A stretch of 48,831 nt of DNA from an uncultured bacterium (GTDB lineage: Bacteria > Cyanobacteriota > Vampirovibrionia > Gastranaerophilales > Gastranaerophilaceae): assembly GCA_949300485.1 (NCBI GenBank), contig CASGEL010000011.1, forward strand, positions 1 through 48,831, given 5' to 3'. Shown here piece after piece: positions 18,656 through 47,594 of the stretch. Positions within the stretch are counted from its first letter, which is position 1; every line of letters starts with the position of its first letter. Under the pieces are notes generated by a model. The model was not told where the DNA came from. It ran no database searches and was given only the letters and a program-made list of their open reading frames with translations. The position numbers were made by a program, and so were the translations under genes.

Positions 18656-19299
18656 CAGACAAAATAATAATATCACCTTCAATATTATCCGCGGACTTTG
18701 CAAATTTAGAAAAGGATATTAAAACAGTAGAAAATGCCGGAGCCGACTGGATACACATAGATGTTATGGATGGACACTTTGTACCAAATATAACAATAGG
18801 AGTTCCTGTCGTAAAATCTATACGAAAAGTTACACCTTTACCACTAGATGTACATTTGATGATTGAAAATCCTGATAAATATATAGAACCGTTTGCTGCT
18901 GCCGGTGCGGATATTTTAACGTTTCATTATGAAGCAGTTAATAATTCTCAAATTATAGAAATTATTAAACAAATACACTCATATGGAATAAAAGCAGGTT
19001 TGTCAATAAAACCCAAAACAAATCCTGACGAAATTTTCAAATATCTAAGTGAAATAGATTTGTTGCTGATAATGACAGTAGAACCCGGATTTGGCGGACA
19101 AAAGTTTATGAACGATTGTGCTGAAAAAATAAAAATAATAAAACCTAATGCCCCAAAAAATTTAATTATACAAGTTGATGGCGGAATAAATGATATTACC
19201 GGGGAAATTTGCAAAAACTATGGAGCAGACTCACTTGTTGCCGGGAATTACATTTATAAATCAGACAATATTGAACAGGCAATCAAATCACTACGCTGA
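18652..19299 (+). CDS. rpe: Ribulose-phosphate 3-epimerase
   Basis: A 215-residue TIM-barrel enzyme interconverting ribulose 5-phosphate and xylulose 5-phosphate in the pentose phosphate pathway. Visible motifs are SPSILSADFANLEKD, the metal-binding WIHIDVMDGHFVPN, LDVHLMI, the phosphate loop VEPGFGGQKFM, and VDGGIN near the C-terminus. It begins inside the rnc stop (ATGA). Its 3' end overlaps the convergent gene 19291-20397 by nine bases. Confidence 0.97.
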   Translation: MTDKIIISPSILSADFANLEKDIKTVENAGADWIHIDVMDGHFVPNITIGVPVVKSIRKVTPLPLDVHLMIENPDKYIEPFAAAGADILTFHYEAVNNSQIIEIIKQIHSYGIKAGLSIKPKTNPDEIFKYLSEIDLLLIMTVEPGFGGQKFMNDCAEKIKIIKPNAPKNLIIQVDGGINDITGEICKNYGADSLVAGNYIYKSDNIEQAIKSLR

Positions 19300-20397
19300 T
19301 TGAGAGTTAATATCTTCACCTTTTCGGATTTTTGCCTTTAAAATTTCGTCTATACTTGCACTGGCAATGGCTGAAGCCTCAGTTCCGTCATTTTGAGCTG
19401 TTTGTACAGGTTTATCAGCTTCTGATTTATTATCACCGTTTTGATCTTTACTATTACTCTCTGAATTTTCCGGAGCAACCGATGCCGCTGAAATACCTGT
19501 TTGAGCTTCAATATTACTTTGATGAGCCATAATAGAATCATGATTGCTGTTTAAAGTATCTAAAGACTGAGCAACTACAGATTGAGCTTGTTCAGAAACG
19601 GATACAGTATTTTCACCTGTACGAGAAACTCTACGTCCAAAAGCTCCGTAAATAAGCGGATATCTCCTCAATTCTTCCCCAATACTTATAGTTTCTGTAC
19701 CATAATCAATGCCGCTATCAGGTATAGAAGACTGGCCTTCAACCAAAGACATCAGATTATCCAATTCTAAGGAATACGAAGCTGCAATAGTCTGCCCGCT
19801 AGTACCCAAATTTTTAACTTGCTGATTTAGTTTATTAATTTTTGCTATATTGGTATTATCTTTTTTATTAGCTTCTGATTTTATATCTGACTTTAAGGCA
19901 TCAATTTGAGCCATCATTTCAGACATATAACTATCTAAACTTTCAATTGAATTTGAGGATTGTTCCGATGCAGCAGAGCTTGATGCCTCAACATTTTCAG
20001 ATTCCACTGTTTTGTCATTACTAATACTTCTAAATTCTACACCTATAGAATAAAGGGATTGACCATCTTTTTCCATTTGCTTTCTTTTTGCGGAAGCAGA
20101 AAGTTCCTCTTGATTTGTACCACTTGTATTTTCTGAAGTTTGAGTATCAGCAGATTCAGAAGTAGATGTAACAGGTTTAGAGGTTGTTGTTGCAGATACA
20201 GGTTCAGATGTAGCCATTTCATATGTGGTATCATCATTATCACCAGCTGCAAGCGTACGCTGAAATTCTTGTGCCCACTGCAAATACTGCGAAGGAACCT
20301 CTACTCCTTGCTGTTCAAAATCTATAATTTCTTTTGATGTAAGCTTTCTCCAATCTACTTGAGTTGGAGATACTGCACCTATTCTTGATACATCCAT
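19291..20397 (-). CDS. Ser/Thr/Glu-rich protein of unknown function
   Basis: A 368-residue protein without signal peptide or membrane helix. Residues 1-50 (MDVSRIGAVSPTQVDW...) look ordered, and 50-130 are a low-complexity Ser/Thr/Glu stretch. Residues 150-215 contain helical, coiled-coil-like sequence (SYMSEMMAQIDALKSDIK). A short ordered part follows near EELRRYPLIYGAFGRRVSR, then another disordered Ser/Asn/Glu tail. The ATG at 20397 has AAGGATG upstream. I do not recognise a family. The layout of short ordered islands in long linkers resembles scaffold or secreted-structure components, but no function can be given. Confidence 0.7.
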   Translation of the reverse strand: MDVSRIGAVSPTQVDWRKLTSKEIIDFEQQGVEVPSQYLQWAQEFQRTLAAGDNDDTTYEMATSEPVSATTTSKPVTSTSESADTQTSENTSGTNQEELSASAKRKQMEKDGQSLYSIGVEFRSISNDKTVESENVEASSSAASEQSSNSIESLDSYMSEMMAQIDALKSDIKSEANKKDNTNIAKINKLNQQVKNLGTSGQTIAASYSLELDNLMSLVEGQSSIPDSGIDYGTETISIGEELRRYPLIYGAFGRRVSRTGENTVSVSEQAQSVVAQSLDTLNSNHDSIMAHQSNIEAQTGISAASVAPENSESNSKDQNGDNKSEADKPVQTAQNDGTEASAIASASIDEILKAKIRKGEDINSQSA

Positions 20398-22231: not shown

Positions 22232-22780
22232 CTAAACAGGCAATAAATCATACTCATAGCCTAGTTTTAAAGCTTCAACATTTTTAGGAATTAAATTTCT
22301 TCTATGAGGAGGAATCACGTTATATAAAGCCTTTTCCAACGTTTTTAACGAAATAAGCTTACTTACCTTTGCCAAAACACCTAATGCAAAAATATTAGAC
22401 ATTTTAATATTTCCAAGTTTTTCTTGAGCTAACTGAGTTATAGGAACAAAAATATAATTTATATCATTTCTTGTTTTCGCAATTTTTGCAAGTGAAGAAT
22501 TTACAATAATAGATCCACCTTTTCTCACCCAAGACGTATATTTATCAAAAGAAGCTTGATTCAAAACAATAATAAAATCAGATTTTGATTTCTGAACTGA
22601 ACTTACTTCCTCATCACTCATCACAATACCACAGTTTACGGTACCTCCACGCATTTCAGCGCCATAACTAGGATACCAGGTCACTTTTTTATTATCAAGC
22701 ATAAATGCATTTGCTAAAACTTCACCTGCCAACAATACGCCCTGTCCGCCAAATCCGGCTATCATAAAATCTTTTTCCAT
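22232..22780 (-). CDS. 2-oxoacid:ferredoxin oxidoreductase gamma subunit (VOR type)
   Basis: A 182-residue subunit of the pyruvate/ketoisovalerate oxidoreductase gamma family. Family features are the N-terminal IAGFGGQGVLLAGEVLANA with its glycine-rich turn, VTWYPSYGAEMRGGTVNC, VLNQASFDKY and MSNIFALGVLA. It completes the four-subunit enzyme made by the preceding genes. It is the last gene of the operon, 19 bases after the beta subunit gene. Confidence 0.93.
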   Translation of the reverse strand: MEKDFMIAGFGGQGVLLAGEVLANAFMLDNKKVTWYPSYGAEMRGGTVNCGIVMSDEEVSSVQKSKSDFIIVLNQASFDKYTSWVRKGGSIIVNSSLAKIAKTRNDINYIFVPITQLAQEKLGNIKMSNIFALGVLAKVSKLISLKTLEKALYNVIPPHRRNLIPKNVEALKLGYEYDLLPV

Positions 22781-22799
22781 ATTTTGTCCTTACCTACAC

Positions 22800-23546
22800 C
22801 TATACTGTAATATCTTTATACACACCCAATTTAAATACAGGCATCATCTCATTTCTTACTCTATCATGAGCCTGCTCCGGAGTCATTCGCCAATTTGTAG
22901 GACAGCTTGATAATATTTCTACAAAACCAAAACCCAGTCCTTTTAATTGAACTTCAAAAGCTTTTTTTATTGCCTGTTTTGCTTTTCTTATATTTGCAAC
23001 AGAATCCAATGCAACTCTTGCACTATAAGCTGTACCGTCACTCAAAGCAATATGTTCTGCTATTTTTACCGGATAGCCGTAATACTCAATATTTCTTCCT
23101 GTTGGAGAAGTTGTTGTAACTTGTCCTAACAAAGTTGTAGGCCCTAATTGCCCGCCTGTCATTCCATATGTCGTATTATTTATACAAATAGCAGACAAGT
23201 TTTCACCTCTAAAGGCAGAATGCATACTCTCAGCCCAGCCTATTGATGCAAAATCGCCATCCCCTTGATATGTAAAAACAAATTTATCAGGCTGAGCCCT
23301 CTTTACCCCGGTAGCTACAGCCAAAGCTCTGCCATGAGGAGCCTCAATTGAATCTATATTTAAAAAATCATATATTCCAACAGAACAACCTATAGATGTT
23401 GCTGTAATTGTATTGTCTTTTAAACCTAATTCATCCAAACACTCTGCAACTAATCTTACAGCAACACCATGGTCACACCCCGGGCAGAATGAGTATCTTA
23501 CATCTTTTTTAAATGTTTCTGGAATTTTAAAAACTTGCGTAACCAT
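22800..23546 (-). CDS. 2-oxoacid:ferredoxin oxidoreductase beta subunit (thiamine-diphosphate binding)
   Basis: A 248-residue subunit that binds thiamine diphosphate and carries out the oxidative decarboxylation. Motifs are RYSFCPGCDHG, the magnesium and diphosphate site YQGDGDFASIGWAE, and NNTTYGMTGGQLGPTTLLGQ. Its start overlaps the alpha stop by one base (TAATG), so the two are translated together. The CPGCDHG cysteines are those that often hold a cluster or stabilise the subunit in this family. Confidence 0.94.
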   Translation of the reverse strand: MVTQVFKIPETFKKDVRYSFCPGCDHGVAVRLVAECLDELGLKDNTITATSIGCSVGIYDFLNIDSIEAPHGRALAVATGVKRAQPDKFVFTYQGDGDFASIGWAESMHSAFRGENLSAICINNTTYGMTGGQLGPTTLLGQVTTTSPTGRNIEYYGYPVKIAEHIALSDGTAYSARVALDSVANIRKAKQAIKKAFEVQLKGLGFGFVEILSSCPTNWRMTPEQAHDRVRNEMMPVFKLGVYKDITV

Positions 23547-24622
23547 TATACACCACCCATTTGTATTTCAATTTCTTTTACAAGATCCTCTACATCTATC
23601 ATAGAGCCGACAGCCTTACCCTTAAATAATACCGGAACTTTACCGTTAACAGCAAGTCTTACATCCCTTACCATTTGTCCCATATTAATCTCTGTTACCA
23701 AGAACTTATCAACCCTATCAGCCAGTTCTGATAATCTTTTGCTCGGGAACGGATACAAAGTAACAGGTCTGAATGCCCCAACTTTTAAACCTTTTTCTCT
23801 GCATATTTTAACGGCAGACTTCACATTACGGTACATTGAGCCAAATGCCGCAACAATAAATGTCGCATCGTCTGTCATATATTCTTCGTATTCAACCTCA
23901 TTTTCTTCAATCAATTTGTATTTTTTAAATAAATTATCAACAAAAACACATTGATCAGATGCAAGTGGCGCATAAGACCTTATAATTCTGCCATCTCTGC
24001 CCTTAGCCCCGGTCAAAGCCCATGAAGAAGTATCTATGTCAGGATAAGGATAATCATAAAATTCTACAGGCTCCATCATTTGCCCTAACAAACCATCTGC
24101 TAACAGAATCGTAGGATTTCTGTATTTAAAAGCCAGATAAAAAGCTTTATAAGTCAAATCAATACATTCTTGAACATTAGATGGAGCTAGGACTATTAAT
24201 TTATAATCTCCATTTCCTCCTCCAATTGTAGCCTGATTATAATCACCCTGAGATGGATATATATTGCCCAAACCAGGGCCACCACGCATAACACTGACTA
24301 AAACCACAGGCAACTCATCTGCTGTAGCATAAGATAATGCTTCCTGCATAAGTGAAATCGCACAAGATGAGGAAGAAGACATTGCCTTAACTCCAGTAGA
24401 AGTTGCTCCAATAACCATATTAATAGCAGCCAATTCACTCTCTGCAGAAACATAAGCTCGCCCTAATTCCTGCATTTTTCCGCTCATAAATTCTCCGATT
24501 TCACTCTGTGGAGTAATTGGATAACCAAAATAGCACTGACAACCTGCAAGTACTGCAGCATTTGCTATAGCATAATTACCCTTCATTAAAACCTTAGTAC
24601 CTGTTAGACATTCTACTACCAT
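23546..24622 (-). CDS. vorB: 2-oxoacid:ferredoxin oxidoreductase alpha subunit, VorB-like
   Basis: A 358-residue alpha subunit. The sequence KGNYAIANAAVLAGCQCYFG, PITPQSEIGEFM, ESELAAINMVIGA, MRGGPGLGNIYPSQGDYNQA and LADGLLGQMMEPVEF matches the VorB (2-ketoisovalerate) branch better than pyruvate or 2-oxoglutarate enzymes. The complex would oxidise branched-chain 2-oxoacids with CoA to acyl-CoA, CO2 and reduced ferredoxin, or run in reverse. Substrate choice is inferred from similarity; 2-oxoglutarate remains possible. It lies four bases after the ferredoxin subunit gene. Confidence 0.93.
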   Translation of the reverse strand: MVVECLTGTKVLMKGNYAIANAAVLAGCQCYFGYPITPQSEIGEFMSGKMQELGRAYVSAESELAAINMVIGATSTGVKAMSSSSSCAISLMQEALSYATADELPVVLVSVMRGGPGLGNIYPSQGDYNQATIGGGNGDYKLIVLAPSNVQECIDLTYKAFYLAFKYRNPTILLADGLLGQMMEPVEFYDYPYPDIDTSSWALTGAKGRDGRIIRSYAPLASDQCVFVDNLFKKYKLIEENEVEYEEYMTDDATFIVAAFGSMYRNVKSAVKICREKGLKVGAFRPVTLYPFPSKRLSELADRVDKFLVTEINMGQMVRDVRLAVNGKVPVLFKGKAVGSMIDVEDLVKEIEIQMGGV

Positions 24623-25006: not shown

Positions 25007-28000
25007 ATGGCTCAAGATTTAGAAAAAATCGTTGAATTATTAAGGGAGATAACTAAAACAAACAGCGCTAATACAAATCATTTTGATAATTTATTAGCTG
25101 AAATAAAAACAAAGCTTGAAACAGAAAAAAAAGACAAAACTTCAATAAATTTAATCAAATCTTATTTGCTGGAATTGACCTCCAGCCTTAAGGAAAAATA
25201 TACATTATCACATGCTAAATATACTCAGGTTGAAAATACTCTGCAAATAATTTTTGAAGATCAGTCCGGGCATGGAAAAGAATTTAAAAAACTCTATACA
25301 AACTTTGTTAACAGCATGGAGATACTGTGTCAGGAAAATTCTAAAAAGAGCGCAGAACTGGATAACCTTGAAAATGAATTGAAAGATAAATATTCTAACA
25401 ACGCTGAACAAATCATAAAAACAATAAATTCTTTAAAAGCGATAAATTATAGTTTTGATAATACTTTAGATACAGTTATTACTTCTTTGGATACAATTGT
25501 CAAAAAATTTATAAAACCAGGAAGAGCAAAAACCATTCAACCAAATGATGAACAAGCTAAAGTAATGCTAAACGCAATGAAAGATTTTTTAGAATATGTA
25601 AATTCTGTTGATTCAGAAGGGGACACTCTTTCTAAAATATTATCAAATATTGAAACAAATGAGAAGCTAAAAATCACTCAGGGAATCATTGATTCAATAT
25701 TTTTAAAATCTGAAGAAATATTTGCAAAAATCAAAAATTTAGCAGGAAAAAATAATTCTAAAAATATAAAAACAGAAAATCTAAACAATAATAAATCAAT
25801 TCAAACTTATAAGAATTTATCTTCTTCAGAAAGTCTTGTAAATCAAATATATGATGTAAAAAAAGCCCTTGCGGAAATAACTCAAAATATTAACAACACT
25901 CCAGATACACAGGCTTTAGAAAAATCTTTACAAAATATAGCAATAAGACTAAATAATATTTCAAACGATATAACAAAAGCAGAATCTGAAAATTTAATTG
26001 ATATTGATAATAAAATATCAACACTCAATAATGAATTAATAACAATCAAAAATATCGTTACTGACCTGAATGATGCAGTTATAGAAAAAATTAATAATTC
26101 TATTGAGTCAATTAAGACAAATAAATTGAATTCAGAATTGAAAGATCATATACATGACATATTATCCAAATTTCCTCAAAAAGAAGATATTGAAAAATTA
26201 TTAAAAAATTACGAATTAGAACTTGAAAATTTGAAGAGTAAAACGGATGAAATTTCTAATAAATTAGAAACTGTTCCATCTCAAGAAACAATTGATTCTA
26301 TATCTTCACAAAATGATGAAATAGAAAACATGATTGACAATTTGAATTTCGATGAAGAATTTGAAAATTTATATAATAAAACTCAAACGATTCAAGACTG
26401 GTTGGAAAAATCTAATGTAAAAGAAAATACGGATACCATTTTATCTGAAATTCAAAATAAAGCAGAACAAAAAGACATTATTACTCTTTTAAATGCCAGC
26501 GAAAAAATAATAAATAAACTTGAAGATATGGCAAACAATACAGACAGTACTCCTGCCGGAGAAACGGCTTCAAATATCTGCGAAATTATTGATGAATTAA
26601 AAAATGAATTTATGAACACCGCAGGCATGCATAATTCTGCGGTTATTGAACAACTTTCAGAATTAGAAAACTCTGTTTCAGGTATTGTGTCAGCAGAGGA
26701 ATTTAACAATTTTACTGAAGATTTAAAAACTTTTATTGAAAAAATCAATAGTGAAACTATTGAAATGAGTGATAACATTGATGAAATTAAAAGTTGCCAA
26801 AATTCACTTGTAGATAGACTTAATAATTTAGATTTAACTCCACTTGAAAATATCATTGAAGAAAAAACAGAACTCTTTGATAAAAAATTGACAACAATTT
26901 CAGACTTTATGGAAAACAATATTAAAGCTGATACCGAAGAAGTAAAAAAATCAATTGCAGAAATCAGAGAAATTCTTGAAAATAAAAAATCAAACTTTGA
27001 TGAAATAGAACATAACAATAATGAAACAATAAAAACAACCAATGAATATCTAAAACAGATTAAAGATCTTCTTGATACATCTGATACCGGTATAAACGAA
27101 AATGTAAGTAATAAAATAAACAAAATAGAACAAGAATTAGTTCAATATCAGAATCTAAATCAGACTTCAATAAATCAAATTATTGAAAAACTTGATGAAT
27201 ATAAAAATTTCTTTGATACACATACAAACGACTCCGATAAGAATGTAGATTCCTCTATCTCTGAAATTTTAGAAATTAAAACCCAAATTCAACAATTAGG
27301 CGAAACCTTCTCTTCATTAAACTATGAAAAAGAGTCTACAGAAGGTAATATTTCATCTTTTGTTGCTGACAAACTGCTTGAAATAAGTGAGAATCTTTCA
27401 GATTTAACAATGAATCTGGAAGAAAAGTTTCAACAAGGATTTACATACAATGCAGAACTAATTGAAGAAAAAACATCAACATTACTTGAAGTAATACAAG
27501 AATTACGACATACAAATACTGAAAATATGGATTTGTATGAGAAATTAACCGTTGCAGACAGTAAACTGCTTGATTCTAAACAAGAACTTGAACTGATTAA
27601 TACAGATGTAATAAATAGCCTGAATGAAAAGACAGATAAATTAATAATAGATTTAGAACCGATAAGGGCAATGATCGCTCAATTGACAGAAGCTTCCGAT
27701 ACCAGTAAAAAAGGAGAAGAAGTTAAAGTACAACTGGAAGATCTACATGATTCTGTTCAAGATGATTTAATAGAGTGTACAAAATATTCGAAAAGTACTT
27801 ATGATAAACTAGAAGAAACATACAATAAAATTACAGCGAATTTATCTGAAACAGAAAATCATTTAAGAGATTTTATTCTTGGAGATATTGATTCTGTAAT
27901 TATAAAAGTTGACAGTATGAAAGCATATCTGGAAGAAAATCTTTCAAAGATTACTCCTCCAGATGCTGAGCATATGGCTGAATTTAAAACTTTTGTAGAA

Positions 28001-30787
28001 CAAATCAAGTCTTTTAAAGATGGGCAGCAAAAACTAATAACCGATACCGCTGAAGATATAAAGACCTCTCTTGGAGAGCAAATGTCTGAACAGCATGAAG
28101 AAATAAAATCAATGCTGACCGTTGCAATCAATAATGAAGAAATAATTTCAGCTATTGATAACTTAAAAAAATGCTTCAAATTAAGAATTAAAGAACTAAT
28201 TAAGCTCCAAAAAGAATCTGCCCAATCAGTACAAGATAATTTGCTTGATTTTGCTAACAATCAGTATGAACAAGTTTTTGAAGCAAGTAAAAATACAAAA
28301 GTTATAGAAGAAATAAAAGAAGATTTTGATAAATTTTCTGAACTAATAAAAGACCTATCTGGAGATAATTCTCAGATAGAAGAAGTTCTTGAAATCATCA
28401 AAGGAAAAATGGAAACACTTTCTGTTACGAAAGCAGCTCCTGAAATAATCGAAGGAGATGAAGATTCTTATAACTCTGATGATGATTCAAATGAACAAGA
28501 AGCTTTTGACTTAGATAAAGACGACAATGATATCCAAATAGAAAATAATGACCTGGAAGAAGACTATGATGAAGATGAAGATATTCTTGTAGGGGTTAAC
28601 AATTTTGACATAATAAAAGCTTTGGATTTATTAAAACAAGACATAAATAATCTTCATGCTGACATCACTCGAGTTCTTCCTCAAAATGAACAAAAAACAA
28701 AAACTGACTCAAATTCTTTAAAATCAATTCCTTCTTTAGGAAATGATAATTTGCTGCTCAGCCTGAACAATAAAATAGAACTCTTATCTCGAACAATCAA
28801 TAAAGATTGGCTTGAAGAGATTAAAAATTATATCTCAGGCGGCGAAATACATTCTATGCTGGAAGAAATCAATGATAAGATTAACATCTTAACTTTGTCA
28901 GATACCAGTGAATGGATAATGGAAATCAAACAGGCACTGGATCAATTAAACAGCGGAGATATTGAAACAGGAGGCGACGCAGGTAAACAAGTACAAACAA
29001 TGCTTGCCCTAATCAATGAAAAAATTGATATTCTTGCATCAAGCGAAGATTATGATTTGATGCAAGACGTAAGAGAAGCTATTGACAGACTAAATTCTAT
29101 TCAAGGAACAGAATCTGCAGAACTTTTAAATCTTATTAATGAAAAAGTCGATATTTTGGCTTCTTCTGATAACATTGATGATCTTGAAGATATTAAAGAA
29201 TCTTTGGATGCAATTGAAAATAAAATAGATATTGTAGCATCTTCTCCAGATAACTCAGAAGATTTTGAAGATATTAAACAAACCCTTCAAACAATTGAAT
29301 CAAAACTGGAAGAAGTATCGTCAGCAAATGACCTTGAAATCATCAAGAAAGCTATTATAAAACTCGAAAAAAATCTGTTAAATAATGTAGCAGATACTCC
29401 TGAAGAGATGAACGATATCCGAGATATCCTTGATTCCATTGAGGGTAAAATAGACTCAGTTGCTTCCTCAGAAACCAGCAACAATATTGAAGATATTAAA
29501 TATACATTACTCAATGTAGATGAAAAAGTTGATAATGTAAAAAAACTTTCAGAATCTGATGCTAAAATCACATCAATGCTGGAAGAATTAAATCATAAAA
29601 TTGATACAATCTCTAAAGAAGAACTGTCAGGAACTAAATCCAATATTGAAGATGTTAAAGATTTAATACTTGCACAAACAGATTATCTTGAAAGTTTTGA
29701 AAAAAATCATAAAACAGATGCTGTAAGAAAATGTTTAAAAGAACTCACAATTGAAGTTAATAATCTGAATAGTAATGATAATACTAAGAAACTTCAACAA
29801 TCAATTAAAGAAATGAAAGAATCAATTATGGCTGCAGTGGTTACCATATTTGAACAAGTGTCTTTTGTTGAAGAATCTGAAGATATCAAAGATTTTGTTG
29901 AAGAAAAAACAGATGAAATCAATCAGAATTTAACTGCAGTTACAAAACAATTAAAGCAAATAACAAATGCGGATGAAGACCCGGATTATACATATTCAAT
30001 GCAGGATATAGAATCTGATTTGGCAAAACTTCGTCTTGCATTAAATGAATTGCAAACATCAGAACAAGAAACTCAAGCAAGCAGGTTATCCTTCATACTT
30101 GATAATATTAACCAAATTGGAGCTTCTGTTATTGATTTGCAAAATTCTCTTACTAAAGAAGAAGTTTTTGGGCTAAAAACACGATTTGACAGAATTAATA
30201 CAGATATAAAGAGTCTTAATGCTATAGTACACCAACTTCTTGTAGCTTCAGGAGAATCTTATAACGCATTAAACACTGGATTAGAAGATTTCGGGAAAAT
30301 TATAACCGATCAGCTTGCATCAAAAGTTGATAATGTGACAAAACTGCTTGAAAAATCAAACGCTTCCGATAAAGTAATGCGTCAAGCATTGATATATATG
30401 GGAGAATGGATAGACTCAGCAAGCGACAGTATGAATAAAATTTCGACAAATTCCGAAGAAATTGTTGATATCAAATCTGCTCTTGAAGGATTAAAAAAAG
30501 AAATTCCTGAACAAACAGATATCCTAAATTCTATTGAAGAAAAATTTGATGAACAACAAGAACGTCTTGCTTATTTTGAAAAACAAATAAGCAAACTCGG
30601 CGGACTTGAAGACAAATTTGAAGAACAACAGGAAAGAATTGACAGACTTGAAATGGCACTTGAAAAAATTCTTTCTGCGGTAGAAGATATAGATGACTCA
30701 AAAGTTACCAGAAAAATAGATAAAATAGATAAACAAATTGCTAAATTAAGCACAAATATAGAAAAATTGGCATCATATGTTGACTAA
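25007..30787 (+). CDS. Giant repeat-containing coiled-coil protein (1926 residues), unknown function
   Basis: A single uninterrupted reading frame beginning MAQDLEKIVELLREI at an ATG preceded by AAGGACAAAGG. There is no signal peptide, no membrane helix and almost no cysteine. Nearly the whole chain is charged, heptad-rich helix. A strongly acidic linker lies at about 1148-1193. After it, from about 1250 to 1530, a unit like NEKIDILASS...DIKE.LD.I recurs about nine times at irregular spacing (near 1253, 1289, 1337, 1379, 1406, 1430, 1478, 1504 and 1528). The C-terminus has a doubled EEKFDEQQER/EDKFEEQQER element and a final coiled coil. It would be a long cytoplasmic rod, perhaps a scaffold or cytoskeletal element. 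It overlaps the next gene by 11 bases. No family recognised. Confidence 0.85.
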   Translation: MAQDLEKIVELLREITKTNSANTNHFDNLLAEIKTKLETEKKDKTSINLIKSYLLELTSSLKEKYTLSHAKYTQVENTLQIIFEDQSGHGKEFKKLYTNFVNSMEILCQENSKKSAELDNLENELKDKYSNNAEQIIKTINSLKAINYSFDNTLDTVITSLDTIVKKFIKPGRAKTIQPNDEQAKVMLNAMKDFLEYVNSVDSEGDTLSKILSNIETNEKLKITQGIIDSIFLKSEEIFAKIKNLAGKNNSKNIKTENLNNNKSIQTYKNLSSSESLVNQIYDVKKALAEITQNINNTPDTQALEKSLQNIAIRLNNISNDITKAESENLIDIDNKISTLNNELITIKNIVTDLNDAVIEKINNSIESIKTNKLNSELKDHIHDILSKFPQKEDIEKLLKNYELELENLKSKTDEISNKLETVPSQETIDSISSQNDEIENMIDNLNFDEEFENLYNKTQTIQDWLEKSNVKENTDTILSEIQNKAEQKDIITLLNASEKIINKLEDMANNTDSTPAGETASNICEIIDELKNEFMNTAGMHNSAVIEQLSELENSVSGIVSAEEFNNFTEDLKTFIEKINSETIEMSDNIDEIKSCQNSLVDRLNNLDLTPLENIIEEKTELFDKKLTTISDFMENNIKADTEEVKKSIAEIREILENKKSNFDEIEHNNNETIKTTNEYLKQIKDLLDTSDTGINENVSNKINKIEQELVQYQNLNQTSINQIIEKLDEYKNFFDTHTNDSDKNVDSSISEILEIKTQIQQLGETFSSLNYEKESTEGNISSFVADKLLEISENLSDLTMNLEEKFQQGFTYNAELIEEKTSTLLEVIQELRHTNTENMDLYEKLTVADSKLLDSKQELELINTDVINSLNEKTDKLIIDLEPIRAMIAQLTEASDTSKKGEEVKVQLEDLHDSVQDDLIECTKYSKSTYDKLEETYNKITANLSETENHLRDFILGDIDSVIIKVDSMKAYLEENLSKITPPDAEHMAEFKTFVEQIKSFKDGQQKLITDTAEDIKTSLGEQMSEQHEEIKSMLTVAINNEEIISAIDNLKKCFKLRIKELIKLQKESAQSVQDNLLDFANNQYEQVFEASKNTKVIEEIKEDFDKFSELIKDLSGDNSQIEEVLEIIKGKMETLSVTKAAPEIIEGDEDSYNSDDDSNEQEAFDLDKDDNDIQIENNDLEEDYDEDEDILVGVNNFDIIKALDLLKQDINNLHADITRVLPQNEQKTKTDSNSLKSIPSLGNDNLLLSLNNKIELLSRTINKDWLEEIKNYISGGEIHSMLEEINDKINILTLSDTSEWIMEIKQALDQLNSGDIETGGDAGKQVQTMLALINEKIDILASSEDYDLMQDVREAIDRLNSIQGTESAELLNLINEKVDILASSDNIDDLEDIKESLDAIENKIDIVASSPDNSEDFEDIKQTLQTIESKLEEVSSANDLEIIKKAIIKLEKNLLNNVADTPEEMNDIRDILDSIEGKIDSVASSETSNNIEDIKYTLLNVDEKVDNVKKLSESDAKITSMLEELNHKIDTISKEELSGTKSNIEDVKDLILAQTDYLESFEKNHKTDAVRKCLKELTIEVNNLNSNDNTKKLQQSIKEMKESIMAAVVTIFEQVSFVEESEDIKDFVEEKTDEINQNLTAVTKQLKQITNADEDPDYTYSMQDIESDLAKLRLALNELQTSEQETQASRLSFILDNINQIGASVIDLQNSLTKEEVFGLKTRFDRINTDIKSLNAIVHQLLVASGESYNALNTGLEDFGKIITDQLASKVDNVTKLLEKSNASDKVMRQALIYMGEWIDSASDSMNKISTNSEEIVDIKSALEGLKKEIPEQTDILNSIEEKFDEQQERLAYFEKQISKLGGLEDKFEEQQERIDRLEMALEKILSAVEDIDDSKVTRKIDKIDKQIAKLSTNIEKLASYVD

Positions 30788-32162
30788 TAATTTAATAAAA
30801 GAACTAAATAATACATTACCTAAAAGCAATATACTCTCAGGAATTGAAGAGCGTTATGTATATTCGATAGATGCTTCCAACGACCCGTACATAAAATCTC
30901 AAATTCCTGATGCAGTTGTTTTTGTCGAAAATATAGAACAGGTTCAACAAGTTGTAAAAATAGCAAATAAGCATATGACTCCGATAATTTGCAGAGGCGC
31001 AGGAACAAACACAGTGGGTGCCTGTGTTGCAACACATGGTGGCATTATTTTAAATTTTTCAAAAATGAACAAAATTCTTGAAATCAATGCCGAAAATATG
31101 ACAGCACGCGTACAGCCGGGAGTTATTGTAGGAGATTTACAAAAAGCAGTAGAAGACATTGGATTATTCTACCCGCCTGATCCGTCAAATCTAAAAGTTT
31201 CGACTATAGGCGGCAGTATTGCACAAAATTCTGCAGGAGCAAGGTGCTTTAAATACGGAGCAACAAAAGATTATGTTATAGATATGCTTGTTGTAATGGC
31301 AGATGGACAGCTTATTAGAACCGGTTCTAATACTATTAAAAATGCAACAGGATACAACCTTGGAAGTCTTTTTATCGGTTCTGAAGGGACTTTGGGAATA
31401 GTTGTCGAGGCAACCCTTAAATTGATAACAAAACCCCAAACCTCTCAAGTTATTATGGCCTATTTTGATAAAATAGAAGACTCTATAAAATCTGTTAATA
31501 AAATAATAGAAAAACAAATTTGCCCTACAACAATCGACTTTATGGATCAAAATGCTATTCAAACAGTCGAAAAATTCTACCCGACAGGTTTACTTTGTGA
31601 TAAAGAATCTGCATTAATTATTGAAATTGACGGATATGAAACATATATTGAAGAACTGAGAAAAACAATTTGTAATATTCTAAGAGAAAATAAAGCCTCA
31701 AGTATTCAATTTTCTAAAAATAAACAAGAAGCAGACCACATTTGGACAGCCAGAAGATCATCAATGGCAGCCTGTACAAAATTAAAACCAAACGTAACAA
31801 CCGATGATGTTATTGTTCCAAGACAAAATCTTGCAAAACTTGTAAAAGGAATCCAAGAAATTTGCAAACGTCATAATCTTACGGTTTGTATGGTAGGACA
31901 CGTGGGAGATGGCAGTGTCCATCCTCAAATACCTATTGATTATAATGATAAAGATGAATATAGACACTATAAAATTGCAAAATCTGAAATTTATCATTTG
32001 ACAGTAAAACTTGACGGTATTATATCAGGAGAACATGGAATAGGTTTGGAAAAGAAAGCATATATTTCTAAAGTTGTTGAAGGCGGTGCTTTAGATTATA
32101 TGCGCCAAATCAAAAAAATCTTTGATCCTAAAAACATTCTAAATCCTTATAAAATATTTTAA
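30777..32162 (+). CDS. FAD-linked oxidase, GlcD/D-lactate dehydrogenase family
   Basis: A 461-residue flavoprotein. The N-terminal PCMH-type FAD domain includes VENIEQVQQVVKIANKH, RGAGTNTVGAC, FYPPDPSNLKVSTIGGSIAQ and TGYNLGSLFIGSEGTLGI. The C-terminal domain has the family's HVGDGSVHP and SGEHGIGLEKK motifs, the former carrying metal/substrate histidines. It oxidises a 2-hydroxyacid such as glycolate or D-lactate; the acceptor (quinone, ferredoxin or ETF) is unknown, and no GlcE/GlcF partner is present. It starts inside the 3' end of the giant coiled-coil gene with no clear ribosome site, implying coupled translation. Confidence 0.93.
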   Translation: MLTNNLIKELNNTLPKSNILSGIEERYVYSIDASNDPYIKSQIPDAVVFVENIEQVQQVVKIANKHMTPIICRGAGTNTVGACVATHGGIILNFSKMNKILEINAENMTARVQPGVIVGDLQKAVEDIGLFYPPDPSNLKVSTIGGSIAQNSAGARCFKYGATKDYVIDMLVVMADGQLIRTGSNTIKNATGYNLGSLFIGSEGTLGIVVEATLKLITKPQTSQVIMAYFDKIEDSIKSVNKIIEKQICPTTIDFMDQNAIQTVEKFYPTGLLCDKESALIIEIDGYETYIEELRKTICNILRENKASSIQFSKNKQEADHIWTARRSSMAACTKLKPNVTTDDVIVPRQNLAKLVKGIQEICKRHNLTVCMVGHVGDGSVHPQIPIDYNDKDEYRHYKIAKSEIYHLTVKLDGIISGEHGIGLEKKAYISKVVEGGALDYMRQIKKIFDPKNILNPYKIF

Positions 32163-35629: not shown

Positions 35630-36109
35630 ATGAATTTAAATTCAGCAAGAGTAAAAATTGAAGAACGAGAATTACTATACAGACAAACCGGTTATGTTAA
35701 TAATCCGATAAAAGAAGATACCTCCGTTATAGAAGCTGACTTTTACCAAGCAAAACCTATGACAATAAGGGAAATGGTAACTAGAAAAATTAACAAATCG
35801 CTTTGTTTCTGCTTGGGTATAACAATTGCAATTACTTTTGTCAGTTATTATATAGCAATGAATTATGAAGCTAAATTAAATAAACTTGATAATGAAATAG
35901 TAAGATTAAATGTTGAAAACCAAGATTTACAAGCTGAATTAGACAGATTTAAATCATTTAATAATGTTGATAATAAAATTGGAGAATACAACATCTTACA
36001 AAAAGCAGAAAAAGTAATTGAAGTAACAGCTCTTAATTCTGCGGAAAAAGATTTTAGTCGTCCTATAAAAACTGCTTCTGGAAACTTCAACTGGGCTATT
36101 GGCTATTAA
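35630..36109 (+). CDS. FtsL/DivIC-like single-pass division protein (candidate)
   Basis: A 159-residue bitopic protein: a cytoplasmic N-terminal part of about 56 residues, one membrane helix (about 57-79, SLCFCLGITIAITFVSYYIA), and an extracytoplasmic coiled coil with heptads (KLNKLDNEIVRLNVENQDLQ and on). This layout, and its place directly after rsmH, fit FtsL, which joins FtsB/DivIC and FtsQ at the septum to activate wall synthesis. FtsL sequences diverge strongly, so synteny and topology are the evidence. AGGTAG lies upstream of the ATG at 35630. Confidence 0.65.
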   Translation: MNLNSARVKIEERELLYRQTGYVNNPIKEDTSVIEADFYQAKPMTIREMVTRKINKSLCFCLGITIAITFVSYYIAMNYEAKLNKLDNEIVRLNVENQDLQAELDRFKSFNNVDNKIGEYNILQKAEKVIEVTALNSAEKDFSRPIKTASGNFNWAIGY

Positions 36110-45302: not shown

Positions 45303-47594
45303 ATGTTAGATTTATTATTTAAGAATAGAGAGCAAGAAATAGCAAAAGATGCAGAACTTAACAGTGTTTATGAAAATTTAAAAAAGGCATATCCGTCTGA
45401 CAATATTCCTGAATTGAGGAAGAAATATTTGTCAATGCATATTCAAAAATTCGGATATCTGACCTATTCATTCCAAAAAGCGCAAAATGAATTAACCCCA
45501 GAGGAAACTCTTTTTGCACTTGAAGAAAAATGGAAGCAAAATAATGTATTTAAAAATGGCAAATTCCATTTTAAAAATAATCAGATAAGTGTACTTTCAA
45601 GACACCAGGAAAAAAATTCTGATTGGTTCAAAAAAGAAGGTCATAATATAAAATTAATTAACCTTGCAGCATTAGGTAATGGGAATAAATCAAATGAACC
45701 AGGGAAATTCTTTGACTGGCTAAAACAACTGCTTATACTTCCTACAGGAAACTTAAATAACAATATTTATAATACAACTATTTATTTAATTCCATTCCAC
45801 CCTAGAGAATTTGGTTGTGCTTATTTACCAAAAAGCAGTGAAGTAAGCCCTAAGCTAAAAGATGAAAATATTGAAAAATTAACAGGAATGGATGTAAAAA
45901 AACAAGTTCAGATATTTATAGAAATGGCTCAACTTGCAGGACATCCGGTAATTTATGACATTCTTCCACAAACAGGACGTTTTTCAAAATTTGTACTTGC
46001 AAACCCACAAGTAGCTCGCTGGTATGATATTACAGAACTTCAAAAACAACTACTGGCTAAAGTCAATGAAGTTGCTGAATTTTTATCAAAAGACCATGAT
46101 CAAGATGATATACAAATTGCAAAAGATGTATACATTCAAAGATTACAAGGTAGTTCCGGAGATTTAAGTCCAGCATTTCAAGAATTATACAACAATTTTG
46201 AAGGTATTATGATTGAACATAAAAAGAAATTTTCAAATGCAATGCTGGAAAAACCTTATCAAGTAAAAATTCATAAAAGAGTTAGAGAACTTGTTGCAAA
46301 GGTTCATGAATTTAAAAACGATAAGAAAAAACTTGAAGAAAGCGATATTACAAAACAAATTGAAACAATACAACTATTGATGAATGAAGGATTATGGCCG
46401 GCACCTGGCGGCGCATGGTGTTCTGCAGGCGTTCCGATTTATGATGGAATGAGTGAATGCGGAGGATATCCTATATTCAAACACTTTGACTATAAAGGGG
46501 ATGACGTAACAGCGTTTGCAAACTTAGATTGTCAAACACCATACTATTTTGTAAATCTTGAAAACGGAAAATACAATGAAGATGTTATTGACCTATTTAT
46601 AGAGAATATGAAACAACTTCAAAAAGATTACAATTTTGACGGCTTCAGGGTTGATCATATAGACCATATTGTAGATGAAGTTTCTGAACAAAATGGTGTT
46701 CCAATAAGTTACAGAGCTCCTAGATATGTTCTAAGAAAACTTAACATGACTATGAAGAAGAAAATCCCGTATTTTGCAACACTCGCAGAGTATATGCTAT
46801 GGGATAATTACCTAAAAGAATATCATCAAGATATGAAATTTGATCTTTTATGGGGTAATGACATTGTTTCTCAATTTGATAAAACACCAGAAAGAATTTG
46901 TGAAGATAACCAATATCTGGCAAATTACAATACAAAATTCAAAAAAGGCAATATGCTGTCTATATTAAAAACTTACAATAATCAAGATGGTGAATTCCAC
47001 TGTATTGACCAGTACCCTGGGCAACTAGGAGAAAAAGGAGCTTTATACAAATGGTTCAAATATAAATTCCTTCCTGGAGGAAAGTTCGCACAAAGACCAA
47101 TCATGTATGTCGATGGAGATGAAAGCTTTACTCAAGGCGGTACAGAATACACTATTGGCGAAGAAGTTGCTATGAAACGAGCTGTTAATGAAGATTTTTA
47201 TAAAAAATTTGATGCAATTGATCGTTTTGTAAAAAATAACAGCATAATTACTAAAGGTGAAGCTCAGATAATTGTCGACGATGAAGATGGATTCAGTGCA
47301 TGGCTAATAACTAGAGAACCAATGAAAACAGCATACCTGATAGTTTCAAATCACAAGTATCCGACGGAAAAAGTTACAAAAACCGCAGCTACAGGTGAAA
47401 ACTATAGAGAAATAGTTGAAGGATATGCAATATTTGATAAAGAAATATTTATCCCAAGTGACTATAATCTTAAAAATGAATACATCTTCAATGAAAATGA
47501 CTTTGAAGCTCAACCAATAGAAAACATGGACAGTATTCATTTTGACAAACTGGAACCAAGTGATTTTAGAATATACGAACTTGAAAGAGGCTAA
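45303..47594 (+). CDS. GH13-like (alpha-amylase superfamily) carbohydrate-active enzyme
   Basis: A 763-residue cytoplasmic protein without signal peptide. The barrel is recognisable: FDGFRVDHIDHIVDE places the nucleophile at Asp451, and FATLAEYMLW puts the general acid at Glu496. HPVIYDILPQTGRF may be the region I strand, although the usual Asn-His is absent. WGNDIV (to Asp520) may be region IV, but it lies unusually close. Residues 1-330 and the C-terminal 120 match nothing I know. It could hydrolyse or transfer alpha-linked glucose, for example in glycogen use. Substrate cannot be assigned, and the family match is moderate. Confidence 0.75.
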   Translation: MLDLLFKNREQEIAKDAELNSVYENLKKAYPSDNIPELRKKYLSMHIQKFGYLTYSFQKAQNELTPEETLFALEEKWKQNNVFKNGKFHFKNNQISVLSRHQEKNSDWFKKEGHNIKLINLAALGNGNKSNEPGKFFDWLKQLLILPTGNLNNNIYNTTIYLIPFHPREFGCAYLPKSSEVSPKLKDENIEKLTGMDVKKQVQIFIEMAQLAGHPVIYDILPQTGRFSKFVLANPQVARWYDITELQKQLLAKVNEVAEFLSKDHDQDDIQIAKDVYIQRLQGSSGDLSPAFQELYNNFEGIMIEHKKKFSNAMLEKPYQVKIHKRVRELVAKVHEFKNDKKKLEESDITKQIETIQLLMNEGLWPAPGGAWCSAGVPIYDGMSECGGYPIFKHFDYKGDDVTAFANLDCQTPYYFVNLENGKYNEDVIDLFIENMKQLQKDYNFDGFRVDHIDHIVDEVSEQNGVPISYRAPRYVLRKLNMTMKKKIPYFATLAEYMLWDNYLKEYHQDMKFDLLWGNDIVSQFDKTPERICEDNQYLANYNTKFKKGNMLSILKTYNNQDGEFHCIDQYPGQLGEKGALYKWFKYKFLPGGKFAQRPIMYVDGDESFTQGGTEYTIGEEVAMKRAVNEDFYKKFDAIDRFVKNNSIITKGEAQIIVDDEDGFSAWLITREPMKTAYLIVSNHKYPTEKVTKTAATGENYREIVEGYAIFDKEIFIPSDYNLKNEYIFNENDFEAQPIENMDSIHFDKLEPSDFRIYELERG

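Follow-up and report, generated by a model that had tools for sequence, protein, structure and literature searches.

The window analysed here, a stretch of 48,831 nucleotides from a genome of 2.05 Mb in 27 contigs, carries one open reading frame so long that it raises the question of what its product is and what it may do in the cell. The genome belongs to Gastranaerophilales, gut melainabacteria that are non-photosynthetic relatives of cyanobacteria. These organisms are known mainly from assembled genomes, and their cell architecture is little known. An earlier note, made from the letters alone, had likened the product to scaffold or tether proteins. The sequence supports such an anatomy, that of an unassigned giant helical protein with the marks of a cytosolic location.

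The reading frame and its product

The frame begins with ATG and runs for 1926 codons with no internal stop. It is the longest of the window, as had been claimed, and the runner-up encodes 763 aa. Overall dN/dS is 0.09–0.20 in nine ortholog pairs and third positions are the most changeable, so that the ORF is, on its substitution pattern, a real coding gene under purifying selection; the contrary evidence that the earlier note had named for this point, a sign that the frame goes untranslated, did not turn up. In the tail and the signature block of the protein, dN/dS is 0.01–0.10.

The claim that the protein has no recognised family held up. No Pfam or NCBIfam family scores over its cut-off, no PDB sequence matches at E<=0.01, no PHROG family fits, and PDB and phage sequence searches with the giant's sequences were empty or returned coiled-coil background only. 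With this ORF as founder, a hitherto undescribed family of proteins emerges in Gastranaerophilales, an order of gut melainabacteria, and its members run from about 700 to 2870 aa. No description of it was found in the open-access papers searched, and nothing related was found on Gastranaerophilales together with coiled coils. Long helical scaffolds are already known; new here are the family, its two variable arrays and its restriction to the lineage. No export signal is visible by eye, in agreement with the earlier reading, and no membrane helix is present (top 19-mer Kyte-Doolittle value 1.16). The protein is probably cytosolic.

The AF2 model of residues 1–960 (pTM 0.34) presents a head of antiparallel helices of about 35–40 residues, with pLDDT mostly 65–90 over residues 1–210, and a second confident stretch at about 745–870 with pLDDT up to 87. 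The model of residues 950–1926 (pTM 0.26) predicts a disordered acidic linker, short helices in the repeats and long helices in the tail; prediction of the repeat region, which had been proposed as a check, thus gave a low-confidence model. Of the long rod described earlier, the helicity stands, but the N-terminal half is modelled as antiparallel bundles in its two confident stretches and not as one continuous coiled coil. For the head, this moderate-confidence model suggests a helical-bundle fold. Foldseek returned no match at E<0.001 for either model. Matches from VIA-align to helical bundles, among them designed four-helix proteins (Z up to 16), were rejected as helical-bundle background that falls partly on low-confidence regions. 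Because this background is common and parts of the models are of low confidence, no fold is claimed.

Fixed parts and variable spacers

The features of the gene and its surroundings are collected in Table 1. Comparison of block lengths among orthologs separates parts that keep their size from parts that do not. The head is of near-constant length (227–248 aa), and its MAQ start is kept within the genus. Residues 241–400 correspond to 148–169 aa, the middle segment to 452–688 aa with a conserved block at 801–880, residues 1546–1700 to 149–178 aa, and residues 1791–1926 to 110–151 aa. Spacer 1 ranges from 97 to 950 aa and correlates with total length at 0.95; spacer 2 ranges from 116 to 515 aa with a correlation of 0.84. 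In the longest relatives (L009, L014 and L015), spacer 1 repeats every 171 residues.

Table 1. Features of the giant gene and its neighbours, in window coordinates; residues are those of the giant protein.
Feature	Residues	Position	Strand	Basis
Divergent genes for the three subunits of a 2-oxoacid:ferredoxin oxidoreductase		22232..24622	-	conserved upstream neighbour in many genera
Giant helical protein, whole ORF (1926 aa)	1-1926	25007..30787	+	open frame; orthologs; dN/dS
N-terminal head, predicted antiparallel helical bundle	1-240	25007..25726	+	AF2 pLDDT; block lengths; MAQ start
Variable spacer 1	401-640	26207..26926	+	block lengths; correlation; offset 171
Middle segment, predicted helical bundle at ~745-870	641-1137	26927..28417	+	AF2; block length; conserved block
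Acidic linker, predicted disordered	1148-1193	28448..28585	+	pLDDT 31-33; D/E vs K/R counts
Variable spacer 2, nine degenerate ~26-residue units (NEKIDILASS type), predicted helical	1225-1545	28679..29641	+	regex vs shuffles; offset 26
Signature block (VSFVEESEDIKDFVEE..YTYSMQDIESDLAKLRLAL)	1601-1680	29807..30046	+	identity; signature profile A4
C-terminal tail, predicted coiled coil	1785-1926	30359..30784	+	alignment A1; heptad period; coiled-coil profile matches
11-nt overlap, glcD start ATG within the giant's SYVD-stop codons		30777..30787	+	sequence
glcD-type FAD-linked oxidase (461 aa)		30777..32162	+	Pfam/NCBIfam; GHVGDGSVHP and SGEHGIG motifs

The earlier note had counted a nine-fold repeat in spacer 2. 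The pattern [LIVM]xx[ILVM][NDEKQS]x[KR][ILVM][DENQ]x[LIVM], applied to residues 1241–1540, finds nine units (starts 1250, 1285, 1333, 1374, 1400, 1427, 1475, 1501 and 1525) against 0.05 expected in shuffles (maximum 2 in 2000 runs) and 0.31 (maximum 3) when the hydrophobic pattern is kept, an excess somewhat flattered by a pattern written after the units were seen. The count stands, but the units are irregularly spaced, at 25–49 residues, and lie among the least conserved parts of the protein. The search for the unit in the lineage, proposed at the same time, found 1–14 units in orthologs. In L014, spacer 2 is a clean 26-residue tandem repeat of 14 units (for example DSDNEEFVSELKDKLGLIESKVDILA), and the nine units of the window read as a degenerate form of this second array.

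A similar outcome holds for two other elements. The proposed hinge is indeed acidic, with 25 D/E against 2 K/R over residues 1138–1197, and predicted to be disordered; its sequence is nevertheless poorly conserved in orthologs, where acidity is usual. The doubled EQQER is present near 1849 and 1873, but the first copy falls among the least conserved parts, and only the second recurs in nearly all members. Mean identity is 12–16% in the linker (1161–1200) and the repeats (1401–1480), and about half of the sequences have gaps there. The alignment thus marks linker and repeats as least conserved and the head, middle segment, signature block and tail as the fixed parts.

The conservation lies in the signature block and the tail, which the earlier note did not single out. 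The block is the most conserved stretch, about 80% identical as a whole, with identities to the window protein of 88% (1601–1640) and 75% (1641–1680) in 31 sequences. Within it lies the protein's most hydrophobic 19-residue segment (1603–1621), which is not N-terminal, and the block is for this reason the first candidate docking site. One ortholog (L084, from the same genome as L011) has an in-frame TAA at about codon 1580 that breaks the block while the frame continues, either an assembly error or a broken gene.

The tail contains the motifs GEWIDSAS and QQERIDRLE..RKIDKIDKQ..IEKLASYVD. Over residues 1881–1926, mean identity to the window protein is about 80% in the 31 aligned orthologs, a conservation not to be ascribed to protein function alone, since part of the constraint on the residues that overlap glcD comes from its start codon. 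The tail has a strong heptad signal (period 3.46), and among the solved coiled coils that its profile matches, many are trimers. It is probably oligomeric, and a trimer is a tentative suggestion. Pfam matches of the window's tail to Baculo_PEP_C, NPV_P10 and BLOC1_2 fall below cut-off and were read as coiled-coil background.

Distribution and the glcD neighbour

A full-length search found orthologs in 35 of the 36 other genomes of the genus. Gene loss in G013 was rejected, as the contig there ends inside the neighbouring oxidoreductase gene. A C-terminal profile of the last 337 residues matches 243 of 286 genomes of the order and 39 of 50 genera, counts whose weaker family f3 matches may include coiled-coil background. 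Of 386 genomes taken from the phylum, 162 match the signature profile (103 residues). All matches listed lie in Gastranaerophilales, in families f1, f6 and f7, with none among the listed genomes of the class's other families or outside the order; 204 further matchless genomes were counted without being named. In four genomes of genus g31 the profile matches 3–5 times, and in G116 and G166 it matches at several places within one ORF, which indicates that the block itself can be repeated. Orthologs in public records come mostly from metagenome-assembled genomes of Candidatus Gastranaerophilales or Melainabacteria, and by these the window would be placed there too.

The coupling to a flavoprotein oxidase claimed earlier is real in the window, where the two frames overlap, and giant and glcD are on this ground probably made from one message in a large clade. 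There, every one of 75 genomes, from 15 genera, has glcD immediately downstream. At the junctions that were read the frames mostly overlap, across many genera; in g37 and g50 a short gap separates them. The coupling does not extend to the whole family, however. It is seen in 0 of 10 genomes sampled elsewhere, and the giant is unlinked in g29, g32, g33 and g34 and in families f3, f6 and f7. In G127, a genome 99% complete, the giant adjoins cutA and glcD has no match. By these gene orders the linkage is clade-specific and the giant is without dependence on the oxidase; it seems to be older than the linkage and can be kept in the absence of glcD. Outside the linked clade, glcF follows glcD in most loci examined, and in the window's genome glcF is intact but unlinked. 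An apparent fusion of giant and GlcD in L127 (4532–8710, a 1392-aa ORF) was rejected as a scaffold artefact: the join has an unreadable residue from N bases, and the last residues of the tail and the first 31 of GlcD are missing.

The gene cutA also sits beside the giant's homolog in family f6, and in several genera it comes after glcD. The neighbours at unlinked loci, named by eye as fatty-acid synthesis genes, cutA, a putative MlaD and an ABC gene, differ between genera save for cutA and were discarded as clues to function. Proteins of about 265 aa with a HEFAHYxH-like motif, possibly zinc peptidases, recur after glcD or cutA (L111, 3900–4688, without a Pfam match; similar in L112, L121, L122 and L161). 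Elsewhere in the window, a 763-aa protein (45303–47594, forward strand) is without a Pfam or NCBIfam family and has a 52% identical relative in L158 (2484–4217). A 368-aa protein without family (19291–20397, reverse strand) is 28–74% identical in relatives, its neighbours mostly 65–97%, and so looks like a fast-evolving gene within a conserved block. A small coiled-coil protein directly 3' of rsmH (mraW) (35630–36109, forward strand), with weak DivIC/FtsL matches, is probably a divergent FtsL.

A proposed scaffold or tether and its alternatives

Fixed ends together with two arrays that track total length suggest a scaffold or tether, and on balance the giant is judged to be a lineage-specific cytosolic one with conserved docking ends and evolvable spacers. 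The head and the C-terminal module, made of signature block and putatively multimeric coiled-coil tail, would be the docking and oligomerisation ends, while helical bundles, disordered acidic hinge and repeat arrays would form a flexible arm. Gain and loss of repeat units would have changed the length of this arm in evolution, the arrays setting its reach as in spectrin-like tethers. The GlcD-type flavoprotein of the large clade may be a client of the giant or merely co-expressed. Docking and scaffolding, like the cytosolic location, are what we infer for the protein. Long helical proteins may also be rulers, segregation proteins or surface proteins, which counts against a tether.

Eukaryotic spectrin and plakin tethers have docking ends spaced by a repeat-built helical arm. 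The giant is proposed to work like them by analogy, homology not having been found; Spectrin Pfam matches in 9 of 31 tails were read as coiled-coil background. EzrA, a bacterial spectrin, carries a transmembrane helix at its N-terminus and five triple-helix repeats, each about 100 aa long (PMC4243239). The proposed likeness is that of a single long protein in which one antiparallel helical bundle follows another, although in the giant only the head and residues 745–870 are modelled as bundles and the remainder is of low confidence. Unlike EzrA, the giant has no transmembrane helix and its repeats are of about 26 and 171 aa; the EzrA Pfam match is sub-threshold, in 4 of 31 tails. Cyanobacterial CCRPs such as Fm7001, All4981 and Syc2039, with tested candidates of about 280–650 aa (Springstein et al. 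2020, PMC7002697), come from the same phylum and are likewise helical, coiled-coil-rich and initially uncharacterised, and they have been proposed or shown to be scaffolds or filaments. Membership of their loose class calls for 80 or more residues that COILS places in a coiled coil; heptad periodicity is strong in the giant's tail. The giant family differs in its greater size range, in its pair of length-variable arrays and in its signature block, whose profile has no match in listed genomes outside the order. SpiroCoCo (NF047515) is a coiled-coil family by name, to which the tail aligns at 24.4 bits, far under the 125 bits that its curated cut-off demands.

If the giant polymerised into a cytoskeleton, in the manner of intermediate filaments or of bacterial spectrin, and so gave the cell or its division site its shape, this would suit its length, helicity, heptad tail and bundle-type segments, and its retention in nearly all species. 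Weak sub-threshold matches to Spectrin and EzrA in some members point the same way, but such matches are generic to coiled coils, the membrane anchor of EzrA is absent, and no gene for division or shape adjoins the giant consistently; this explanation is unlikely. Less likely again is a dedicated organiser of GlcD, whose tail would bind the flavoprotein and hold it on an assembly, replacing GlcF, the operon partner in sister families. The unbroken linkage in 15 genera, with frames mostly overlapping, argues for it, as does the glcF-like gene that mostly follows glcD in sister families. Against it, the giant seems older than the linkage and is unlinked in the four genera and three families named above, G127 keeps it where glcD was not found, the window's genome has an intact GlcF at another locus, and the one apparent fusion is an assembly artefact.

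That the giant sets a length, as the tape measure of a phage does, is very improbable. Its length does vary between fixed ends through repeat gain and loss, and there is one weak PHROG tail-protein match (E=0.0016), but phage genes are absent around it, the signature block matches 0 of 50,697 phage records, the hydrophobic segment is absent, and it occupies a single chromosomal locus with metabolic neighbours kept across genera. Least credible is that the giant is all or part of a chromosome protein of the SMC or Rad50 kind, the catalytic type being already refuted. The NCBIfam matches to Rad50 and SMC reach 21–28 bits against cut-offs of 567–729; a motif scan found neither Walker A (GxxxxGK[ST]) nor LSGG in the window's protein, and Walker A is absent from every aligned member. 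Of the homologies that the earlier note had named as contrary evidence, to SMC, to Rad50 or to a known cell-wall scaffold, none emerged. SMC/Rad50, EzrA, SpiroCoCo and tape measures each have at least one defining feature that the giant lacks, which weakens the case for kinship but leaves the case for a tether-like function as it was.

A more far-reaching and less probable proposal, akin to the undescribed cellular structure of the earlier note, is that the giant builds something new inside the cells of Gastranaerophilales and peculiar to them: a tether or network with two ends and of repeat-tuned reach, which in one large clade would organise a flavoprotein oxidase. A gene of about 5.8 kb in a 2 Mb genome, kept by nearly all of the best-sampled family, implies that its product is structurally important. 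The fixed ends and the variable arrays predict docking ends and a tunable arm, and the signature block can be used as a lineage marker.
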